Shown here in pieces: positions 31,814 to 64,000 of a DNA stretch of 64,000 bases (positions within the stretch are counted from its first letter, which is position 1; each line of letters opens with the position of its first letter). The notes below the pieces were generated by a model. That model did no database searches. It was not told the DNA's origin and saw nothing but the letters and a program-made list of their open reading frames with translations. The position numbers and the translations under genes are program-made. Source of the DNA: an uncultured Pseudomonadota bacterium (GTDB lineage: Bacteria > Pseudomonadota > Gammaproteobacteria > Steroidobacterales > Steroidobacteraceae). The stretch spans positions 30,295 to 94,294 of the forward strand of contig CAIRLC010000041.1 in the NCBI GenBank assembly GCA_903879335.1, given 5' to 3'.

Positions 31814-32884
31814 TCAGGCGCCGGGTGGACGCAGCTCGCTGAGCGACCAACGCGCCCGGGCCATCGGTCCCTCGGTTGTTCGCTCCCCCGCGCTGAGGCG
31901 TTCGTACCCTGCATAGGCGATCATGGCTGCGTTGTCGGTGCAAAATTCGGGGCGTGGGTACGCGGCTCGAGCGCCGTAGCGAGCGGCGACCTCAGCCAAC
32001 CGCGCACGAAGTCGCCGGTTAGCGCCGACACCACCCGCGACCACCACCACCTGCCGTCCTGAGGCCTCTAGCGCGCGCCCCACTTTGGTCACAAGGGTTT
32101 CAACGACGGCATCCTCAAACCCACGCGCAAGATCGGCTCTGGCGGCCGCATCATCGCCGGCGCTCTTGAGCGCCAAAAGCGCCGCCGTTTTGAGGCCGCT
32201 AAAACTGAAGTCATAGCCGGGCCGATCCAACATAGGACGGGGGAATTTGTACACACCAGGCCGTCCCATTTCCGCTAGGTGGGCTAGCTTCGCGCCGCCG
32301 GGATAAGCGAGCCCTAACAATTTCGCTGTTTTATCAAAAGCTTCGCCGGCCGCATCGTCCAGCGACTCACCCATCACCTCGTACTGCCCAACCCCCACAA
32401 CGTCGACGATCATCGTATGTCCGCCTGACACCAAGAGCGCCAGATAGGGGAAGGGCGGTGGGTCAAGTTCCAAGCGCGGCGCCAGCAGGTGCCCCTCAAG
32501 GTGATGAATGCCCACGGCGGGAACTCCCCATGCCATTGACAGGCTGGCACCCACCAGAGCACCCACCAGGAGCGCACCAATCAGGCCCGGGCCGGCGGTA
32601 TAGGCGATTCCGCCCAATTCAGACGGGGACAGGCTCGCGTCCTTCAAAACAGCCCGAATCATGGGGACTAAGCGCCGCACATGGTCCCGAGACGCAAGCT
32701 CTGGGACGACGCCGCCCCAAACTTCATGGAGGTCAGTCTGGGTGTAGACCGTGTGCGCGATGAGCCCCCTCCCGCCGCCATAAATGGCCACAGCGGTCTC
32801 GTCACAGGAGGATTCGACCCCCAGAACCAGGAGTGGATGGGCCCTTTGGGGGGGGAGTTGAGATGGGTTTTGATTTTCTTTCAC
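31814..32884 (-). CDS. tsaD: tRNA threonylcarbamoyladenosine biosynthesis protein TsaD
   Basis: Essential ASKHA-fold enzyme of t6A37 modification in ANN-decoding tRNAs. 356 residues; [16 protein letters not shown], the metal-binding [10 protein letters not shown] and [12 protein letters not shown] are intact. GTG start at 32884. There is no other usable start before the conserved domain, so a C8 tract (G8 at 32848-32855 on the plus strand) is translated as part of the Pro-rich leader ([10 protein letters not shown]). Divergent from rpsU. Confidence 0.95.
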
Positions 32885-62568: not shown

Positions 62569-63837
62569 ATGGCCACCGAAGAAAAAGCAGGCGCTAGCCG
62601 CGGCCCATCGTTCCCCATTTTTCTATACTTTGGCTCGTCAACGATTTTGCTGCTGCTTGTAGCACCTGACGGCACGTGGCTTGACGTTGCCACAGCCTAT
62701 CTTCTTCAGATGAAGCTGCACGCAACACCGTCGCAGATCTCTACGTTTCGAGTGTTGACAGGTGCGCCAATTTATATGGGCTTCTTGTTTGGTCTTGTCC
62801 GAAATCTTTGGAATCCGTTTGGCTTACGCGATCGTGGCTACTTTCTGATATTTTCAGTAATTACTGGGCTAATTTTTGCAGCGCTTGCATTGTTGGACGT
62901 TACGTATGCTGCGCTGTTCGTAGGCGTGTTACTGATCAGCATTTGCACACGTTTTTTACTGGCCGCACAACAAGGCCTTATGGGACTGGTCGCCCAAGAG
63001 CATCTAATGTCCGGCCGGATGGCTGCGTTATACAGCGCTTGCTACTTTATCCCACTCATATTGGGCGCCCTATTCGCGGGCGTAGCTGCAGATTCATTCA
63101 CTCCAAGGATGCAATTTCTGACCTTAGCGGTAGTCGGTGTTGCAGTTGGAATTTTTGGTTTTTTGAAGCCTAAGAGTGTGTTTGAAAATGCCTATGAGCA
63201 GCCTCAAGCTCAGGGCTCAGATCTCGTTTCTGACTTGCGCCGTCTGTTCAGCGACCCTGCCGCGCTTGCAGCCGTGGCAATGATTTTTTTATGGCAGTTT
63301 GCGCCGGGCTTGCAAACAGTCATGCAATTCCACCTCACAGAACACTTGGGTGCCGCGGAATCCGCATTCGGCTATTGGACGGCAACGTATTACGTGTCGT
63401 TCTTACCTGGGGTGATTGGCTACGGCTATATTTGCCAGAAAGTTGCGTATGGCCGGCTAGGAACTTGGGCCATCCTCGCGAGCGCGCCGTTAAATTTAGT
63501 GCTGCCGCTTTTGACAAGCCCCGAGCAATTGATGTGGTTTGCAGTTCCGTTGGGGTTGTCGGCGGGCGCCGCTTTCGCAGCACTCTACGACATTGCCATT
63601 CGTGCCTGTCCGCCGGGACTGCACGGCGCTCTCATGATGGCTGTGGCGGGCGGTAACCAGTTGGGTTGGCGAACTGGCGATGTCTTCGGTACTTGGCTTT
63701 ATGGAAGCGGTGGTGACCACGGCTTCTGGTACGCATCAATCGGCACAGCGGTGACCTCCGGGATCGCACCACTGTTTCTCGCGCTAGCGCCCCGAAATCT
63801 TTTGGCGACACGGGACGGAGAGCCGTTAGGCGCCTGA
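62569..63837 (+). CDS. MFS transporter (BT1/folate-biopterin-like or AmpG-like)
   Basis: 422-residue, 12-helix inner-membrane carrier. Helices begin at about residue 14 (FPIFLYFGSSTILLLLVAPDG) and the RVLTGAPIYMGFLFGLVRNLWNPFG loop is typical of the BT1/PUCC-like MFS side branch. Substrate unknown. It follows the TonB receptor and may form an import pair with it. It converges on the tRNA at the right edge. Confidence 0.85.
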   Translation: MATEEKAGASRGPSFPIFLYFGSSTILLLLVAPDGTWLDVATAYLLQMKLHATPSQISTFRVLTGAPIYMGFLFGLVRNLWNPFGLRDRGYFLIFSVITGLIFAALALLDVTYAALFVGVLLISICTRFLLAAQQGLMGLVAQEHLMSGRMAALYSACYFIPLILGALFAGVAADSFTPRMQFLTLAVVGVAVGIFGFLKPKSVFENAYEQPQAQGSDLVSDLRRLFSDPAALAAVAMIFLWQFAPGLQTVMQFHLTEHLGAAESAFGYWTATYYVSFLPGVIGYGYICQKVAYGRLGTWAILASAPLNLVLPLLTSPEQLMWFAVPLGLSAGAAFAALYDIAIRACPPGLHGALMMAVAGGNQLGWRTGDVFGTWLYGSGGDHGFWYASIGTAVTSGIAPLFLALAPRNLLATRDGEPLGA

Positions 63838-63882: not shown

Positions 63883-63922
63883 TGGTGGGCCCGCAGGGAT
63901 TCGAACCCTGAACCAAGGGATT
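63883..63922 (-). tRNA. 3' exon (positions 37-76) of a split tRNA, probably tRNA-Ile(CAU)
   Basis: On the minus strand the exon is exactly 40 nt and fits positions 37-76: A37 A38, anticodon-stem strand TCCCT (39-43), variable loop TGGTT, T-arm CAGGG-TTCGAAT-CCCTG, acceptor strand CGGGCCC, discriminator A and an encoded CCA. The 5' exon, anticodon included, lies outside the window. The AATCnCTTGGT start is like E. coli tRNA-Ile2 (CAU), and Azoarcus tRNA-Ile(CAU) has a group I intron at this same site, so the identity is inferred from those two points. Confidence 0.85.
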
Positions 63923-64000
63923 CACTTATCCCCACGATTTCCCGTGGGAGTGGACTATCTCTTCACCCTCGCCAACCCCGAAAGGTAGCGGTCGGGTGCG
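63923..64000 (-). ncRNA. Group I self-splicing intron in the tRNA anticodon loop (3' part, runs off window)
   Basis: Reading the minus strand, the 78 nt upstream of the exon include GCACCCGACC, a P8-like hairpin (CGCTACC...GGTTGGCG), the P3/P7 strand GGTGAAGAGATAGTCC, a P9 hairpin (CCCACG/CGTGGG, plus 63931-63948) and a terminal G before the exon. These follow in the same order as the 3' end of the Azoarcus pre-tRNA-Ile intron (GCACCC, GGTGAAGGCATAGTCC, P9, terminal G). The predicted splice point is after anticodon position 36. P1-P6 and the guide sequence are outside the window. Confidence 0.82.

Follow-up and report, generated by a model that had tools for sequence, protein, structure and literature searches.

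A predicted group I intron with an additional hairpin in a tRNA-Ile2(CAU) gene of an uncultured Steroidobacteraceae bacterium

In the splicing of group I introns, an exogenous guanosine attacks first, the freed exon then attacks in turn, and the terminal G of the intron is placed in P7. The closest described system is the pre-tRNA-Ile intron of Azoarcus sp. BH72 (IC3), which we take to be inserted between positions 36 and 37 of tRNA-Ile(CAU), as in the gene reported here, and which presumably also resembles the present intron in its P7/J8-7 strand and its small size (205 nt). To our knowledge, there is nothing between P7 and P3 of the Azoarcus intron, that is, no P7.1/P7.2. The two introns would thus have the tRNA and the insertion point in common, whereas the present one is about 60 nt longer and contains P7.1/P7.2. 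The initial annotation of this DNA had called the intron Azoarcus-like; this description is apt for the core and the insertion site, but not for the extra P7.1/P7.2, which is present in 54 aligned relatives and departs from the Azoarcus type.

According to a review by Hausner et al. (2014; PMC3984707), bacterial group I introns are located mostly in tRNA and rRNA genes, and complexes of the Azoarcus pre-tRNA-Ile have been crystallized. The table of another review from 2014 (PMC4033280) lists cyanobacteria, alpha- and beta-proteobacteria only. In the publication on tRNAscan-SE 2.0 (PMC8450103), group I introns are reported in tRNA-Ile2 genes of Acidovorax and Burkholderia, and an fMet or Ile2 gene is stated to have been missed in 36 genomes owing to group I introns. 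These cases, which we liken to ours by their description, concern the same isotype in genes that were missed by a tRNA finder and found by alignment and an RNA family search, but they come from other genera. Interrupted tRNA-Arg and tRNA-Leu genes have been described for Thiomargarita and BOGUAY, large sulfur bacteria that we take as Gammaproteobacteria (PMC4853749); that study concerns other tRNAs and did not determine the intron type. Among the papers listed in our searches of the open-licence literature, which are no proof of absence, there was none on a tRNA-Ile intron of the order studied here.

The interrupted gene and its splice sites

The window, by which we refer to the entire stretch of 64,000 nucleotides that was analyzed, corresponds to bases 30295-94294 of contig CAIRLC010000041.1 (C41) in a genome of 3.14 Mb, 46 contigs, and 96.78% completeness. 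Contig C41 ends at window base 64000, inside an interrupted tRNA-Ile gene, of which the last 118 bases, read on the minus strand, comprise 78 nt of the 3' part of an intron followed by tRNA positions 37 to 76 including CCA (Table 1). From these bases, it had initially been proposed that exon 2 covers tRNA positions 37 to 76 and is preceded by an intron with a terminal G, which proved exact. We consider it highly probable (about 0.93) that the window ends in the 3' part of a tRNA-Ile2(CAU) gene that is interrupted after position 36 by a group I intron of 268 nt. The intron is a known kind of ribozyme, to which this gene adds another case with a structural extra.

Table 1. Coordinates of the interrupted tRNA gene and its neighbor in the window (contig C41), and of the complete gene copy on contig C2 of the same genome.
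Feature	Position	Strand	Contig	Remarks
tRNA-Ile2(CAU) 3' exon, positions 37-76 (A37-A76)	63883..63922	-	C41	CCA encoded; 100% identity to contiguous intronless exon 2 of G048 and G029
3' 78 nt of the 268-nt group I intron	63923..64000	-	C41	cut by contig end; identical to L005:9468-9545
Terminal G of intron	63923	-	C41	directly before exon 2; 77 more intron nt up to 64000
P8 5' strand CACCC	63994..63998	-	C41	helix 16: 100% of cells paired, 4/5 pairs invariant
P8 3' strand GGGTG	63964..63968	-	C41	pairs with CACCC in helix 16
P7 3' strand TAGTC	63953..63957	-	C41	helix 13, invariant; partner GACTA lies off C41, seen on C2
P9 hairpin CCCACGG-GAAA-TCGTGGG	63931..63948	-	C41	GNRA-type loop; helix 19: two-sided changes in 6/7 pairs, 92.5% of cells paired
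P9.0 ACT (63951-63949) / AGT (63926-63924)	63924..63951	-	C41	just before terminal G; helix 18: two-sided changes in 3/3 pairs
MFS transporter gene	62569..63837	+	C41	convergent, 45 bp past tRNA 3' end; PF07690; marks element-free side
Exon 1, 36 nt, GGGCCTG...GGACTCAT	L005:9242-9277		C2	anticodon CAU at end
Intron, 268 nt, C...G	L005:9278-9545		C2
Exon 2	L005:9546-9585		C2

Alone, the piece in the window matched only the 3' end of the Rfam model Intron_gpI (RF00028), with 21.1 bits and an E-value of 0.029 in 4 kb, which is below the gathering score of 50 bits. The whole gene is present on contig C2 of the same genome (L005:9242-9585), and its last 118 nt are identical to the end of C41. The intron of this copy aligned to model positions 1-253 of 253 with 58.4 bits (E-value 5.7e-13), moderately above the 50-bit cut-off and within family RF00028, and it is the sole Intron_gpI match reported in an Rfam search of the genome. 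The group I class given in the initial annotation, for which a covariance search had been suggested, is borne out by this score and by covariation over 54 rows. The predicted 5' half and P1-P6 core were found directly upstream on C2, although with the acceptor strand GGGCCTG, including a U-G pair, and not GGGCCCG. Because the window piece folds with an ordinary energy (z -0.70), the structural case rests on homology and covariation, not on energy.

In G048 and G029, which belong to the same family as the present genome, no sequence separates the exons; exon 1 (35 bases compared) and exon 2 (41 and 40 bases) are each 100% identical to those reported here. These empty alleles with contiguous identical exons position the intron between U36 and A37, in agreement with the insertion after position 36 that had been annotated. 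A chance resemblance to a group I intron was ruled out by the full copy together with the exact empty sites. When the exons of C2 were joined in a script, ARAGORN folded a 76-nt tRNA with anticodon CAU and a full cloverleaf. The anticodon inferred earlier is thus correct, since exon 1 on C2 ends in CAU and the spliced tRNA folds with it. ARAGORN labels the spliced tRNA as Met(cat) and does not separate Ile2; by likeness to known tRNA-Ile2 sequences, we take this CAU tRNA to be Ile2 and not Met.

Screening a single genome for each GTDB r220 species with a sequence pattern identified at least 118 stretches. Among the 118 listed, the 5' half was readable in 112, the other six beginning inside the gene; with the gene reported here, this gave 113 parsed genes. 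All 113 of these genes parsed from the listed matches have C as the first and G as the last intron base, and all 113 have GGACTCAT before the intron and AATCCCT after it, which is in part required by the search pattern. CCA was not seen in 40 of the 113, in three of which the sequence ends there. Separately, we observed that the letters directly after the discriminator base vary among the parsed genes, as if integrating elements had swapped 3' ends.

ARAGORN with default settings detected no tRNA in the full C2 copy, and with introns allowed it reported a tRNA-Gln(CTG) with a splice site shifted by two bases. For the 118 listed relatives, not one intron-containing call carried CAT, and six relatives had no intron-containing call at all. 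The intron can explain missing or wrong tRNA annotation.

Intron structure, putative splicing, and tRNA modification

For an alignment, 54 genes were chosen by hand for spread from the 113 parsed genes, leaving out L099 and L130, which were parsed past a contig end, and L153, which contains Ns. The structure was drawn by hand and comprises the tRNA arms, P1, P2, P3, P4, P5/P5a, P6/P6a, P7, P7.1, P7.2, P8, P9.0, and P9. Over 92 pairs and 54 rows, 96.4% of 4905 cells are standard pairs, by comparison to a mean of 87.0% after shuffling (none of 500 shuffles as high) and to 35-45% when partners were slid by 1-3 columns. Related sequences can exceed shuffles without any structure, and sliding is the better control. 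Two-sided changes occur in 44 of the 92 pairs across the 54 rows. Covariation among these relatives thus supports most of the predicted helices.

The core is paired almost throughout, in 98.8% of cells for P3, 99.4% for P4, and 100% for P7 and P8 (54 rows), as belongs to a group I core, with two-sided changes in four of six pairs of P3, one of six of P4, and one of five of P8. The U36-G pair in P1 is present in all 54 rows. Covariation is silent for P1, P5, P6, P7, and the anticodon stem because these are invariant across the alignment, and P5a is poorly supported, with pairing in 22% and 51% of its cells. Between P7 and P3, the extra hairpin P7.1/P7.2 is paired in 100% of cells over the 54 rows. 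P7.1 is CCTG/CAGG, or GCGG/CCGC in two similar rows from metagenome-assembled genomes (MAGs) labelled Verrucomicrobia (L083 and L117), to which its two-sided changes (two of four pairs) are confined. In P7.2, three of four pairs have two-sided changes, and the variants GGGC/GCCC, GCGC/GCGC, GAGC/GCTC, GGAC/GTCC, and GGAG/CTCC were observed. Most of the two-sided changes in P3 also come from L083 and L117, which are closely similar. That these two MAGs share the tRNA-Ile intron, with P3 and P7.1 changed in a compensatory manner, is an observation in its own right and may reflect transfer or misbinning.

From the sequence, the C2/C41 intron is predicted to be self-splicing. A guanosine bound in P7 would attack after U36, the terminal G at window position 63923 would then move into P7, and the freed U36 would attack before A37, with a normal 76-nt tRNA as the outcome. 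Lysidine at C34, introduced by TilS, and t6A at A37, introduced by the TsaD complex, would be formed only after splicing, because in the precursor C34 is paired in P1 and A37 lies 268 nt away, not joined to U36. The tsaD gene that had been noted in the window is indeed present there (match at 31895-32827, minus strand), and tilS is present in the genome. Both genes are expected in bacteria, and nothing ties either of them specially to the tRNA-Ile2 gene.

In similarity and pattern searches of this genome (96.78% complete), no intronless Ile2 gene was found, which is why AUA decoding most likely depends on the putative ribozyme. The similarity search scored seven of 18 candidates with the full gene and 15 of 15 with the 3' part only, and given this coverage and the completeness of the genome, a further Ile2 gene could be missed. 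The moderate Rfam score, and the fact that splicing is a prediction, would also be compatible with an intron that is degenerate or dependent on a protein, the tRNA then being made from another gene. We regard this as extremely improbable in view of the covariation and the conserved core among relatives, and of the genome searches that returned no intronless Ile2 gene. If the dependence of AUA decoding on the ribozyme is true, reliance on self-splicing for an essential function would be widespread, and it could be tested in cultured Dyella, Rhodanobacter, Lysobacter, and Steroidobacter.

Distribution and inheritance of the intron

Carriers among the matches listed include Dyella, Rhodanobacter, Lysobacter, Luteimonas, Dokdonella, Arenimonas, and Steroidobacter. 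Among 14 other genomes of the genus that were searched by similarity, the gene is whole or nearly whole in 12 and cut by a contig end in G008, and G013 gave no match to the gene. At the level of the order, the intron pattern picked out 90 of 396 genomes and a pattern for the intronless anticodon arm 191, and by reading the two tables against each other, none of the 90 was found among the latter. These pattern counts are lower bounds: G066, G067, G079, G080, and G087 have the intron by similarity and not by pattern, the intronless pattern also misses genomes, and 115 of the 396 match neither. In the order to which G105 belongs, 197 of 299 genomes match the intronless pattern, the only one of the two applied there, so that mutual exclusivity of the patterns refers to one order.

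Across the class, Intron_gpI has matches at E<=0.001 in 56 of 369 genomes, 41 of which score above the cut-off. The statement in the initial annotation that group I introns are uncommon in gammaproteobacterial tRNA genes does not hold, given these class-wide matches and the share of the order (90 of 396 genomes) that has the intron pattern. The best 30 class loci comprise 18 tRNA-Ile2 introns, all 18 of which have the P7.1 signature, eight loci within tRNA genes assigned by ARAGORN to His, Asp, Ser, Lys, or Leu, and four loci without any tRNA found. One genome with an intronless Ile2 gene, G017, has an Intron_gpI match below the cut-off (L300; C8, approximately 372494-372724) within a tRNA assigned by ARAGORN to Leu(UAA).

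For 37 introns representing 14 genera, a tree requires 13 changes of genus label, the fewest possible, by comparison to a mean of 23.2 for shuffled labels (none of 200 as low). The introns thus cluster according to genus, in keeping with descent that was mostly vertical. Neither g1 nor g14 forms a single clade in this tree, in which half of the inner branches (17 of 34) are weak. Intron-bearing and intronless states are both present in genera g4, g10, g19, and g48. Most of the loci compared in g19 and g4 have neighboring genes in common between the two states, indicating that intron gain or loss occurred in place. Genera that differ in the presence of the intron at one locus provide material for measuring its gain and loss. 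Within g19, the intron-bearing loci L283 and L285 have the same neighbor genes as the intronless loci L287 and L288, whereas the tRNA is in the opposite orientation.

The contig break and the two 3' flanks

On the C41 side, the tRNA is followed by the MFS gene (Table 1) and a gene read as a TonB-type receptor. On the C2 side, a tyrosine-integrase gene (PF00589, PF13356, PF22022) is located behind the tRNA. This arrangement resembles the genomic islands in tRNA genes that are described in the Islander publication (PMC4383910), in which a tyrosine integrase gene lies directly behind the tRNA 3' end, but the target on C2 differs in being an intron-bearing tRNA. An integrase of the C2 type was found just downstream in 10 rows, two of which are one place, of 138 flanks with duplicates included.

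Upstream of the tRNA, rmuC is present in 14 of 18 full-length relatives examined. In G010, rmuC and the tRNA are followed directly by a TonB-type gene, and the MFS gene was not found behind the tRNA; in G007, rmuC and the tRNA are followed after approximately 3.1 kb by an MFS homologue and then by the receptor gene. For the remaining 16 of the 18 relatives, MFS and TonB-type genes were not found in the flanking stretch examined. Based on the gene order in G010 and G007, C41 most likely shows what naturally lies downstream of the rmuC-linked tRNA. We therefore favor, as the probable arrangement, a single tRNA that occurs with either of two 3' flanks among the bacteria sampled, namely the integrase gene on C2 and the original neighbor on C41. 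The probable cause of the contig end at this tRNA is that elements integrate at its 3' end.

The identity between C2 and C41 extends over exactly 118 nt and ends right after CCA. Similar contig pairs were observed in G022 (127 nt), G103 (127 nt), and G104 (197 nt); a pair in G106 shares 45 nt only and is thus taken as two different copies, not an overlap. The sole other overlap among 12 contig ends of the present genome measures 141 bp and not 118, which leaves an assembler explanation of the break less than clean. The integrase gene behind the C2 copy and an identity that stops exactly after CCA would also be expected if the edge of C41 were the displaced attR of an element residing in the tRNA, with a direct repeat of at least 118 nt that includes 78 nt of the intron. 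This appears unlikely, given that six of eight genomes scanned (over 2.5 kb in our own, 19-134 kb in the others) had no repeat with a score of at least 15, the remaining two being G100, with a repeat of 17 nt, and G105, with a match of 36 nt within exon 2. Moreover, the far end of the element should match the gene, but no other contig of the bin does (seven of 18 candidates scored). An intron inside the attachment sites of elements was rejected as an explanation, as only exon-sized repeats were found.

The two matches in the genome might alternatively represent two full intron-bearing tRNA-Ile2 genes, one of them cut by the contig end. We consider this quite improbable: the neighbors on C41 are those that follow the rmuC-linked tRNA in G010 and G007, a second 5' half was not found on any contig (seven of 18 candidates scored), and the 13 further members of the genus that carry the gene showed no second intron match. 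A second tRNA gene at the edge of C41 is thus disfavored by the gene order in two relatives, and a single tRNA with alternative 3' flanks remains our preferred reading.

Two of the scanned genomes merit separate mention. On G100:C2 (L220-L222), a 17-nt repeat of the tRNA 3' part lies 26.4 kb downstream of an integrase-flanked, intron-bearing tRNA and is possibly a short attachment site inside exon 2. On G105:C8 (L223, 240000-248000), from a MAG labelled Dokdonella, an intronless tRNA half (approximately 244165-244220) is located 1.04 kb downstream of an intron-bearing tRNA-Ile without CCA; the half covers roughly positions 26-76, has A37 replaced by G, and includes CCA. This half, the only such case among the 118 listed loci (up to 8 kb each), is perhaps a fossil of an intronless allele. 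A displaced intronless half as in G105 is what would be predicted if elements targeting the 3' end or anticodon arm of tRNA-Ile2 moved the intron as well: an element with the intron-bearing half in its attachment site would restore an interrupted tRNA gene and displace the intronless half of the host, a process that we regard as very improbable. If true, it would constitute a route of intron gain that is free of a homing endonuclease.

No intron match was found in plasmids, and seven phage records contain partial matches covering 17-26% of the query. Three of six viral pattern hits (L333, L336, and L337) look like chance, with neither a tRNA nor an Intron_gpI match, and the other three match Intron_gpI below the cut-off and are cut at the contig start. 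The three viral contigs that start inside the intron showed no second copy at the other end, these contigs being fragments. These IMG/VR contigs (L332, L334, and L335) run from within the intron through exon 2 into what by eye is an integrase-like frame, and L332 and L334 come from different samples, yet begin at the same first base.
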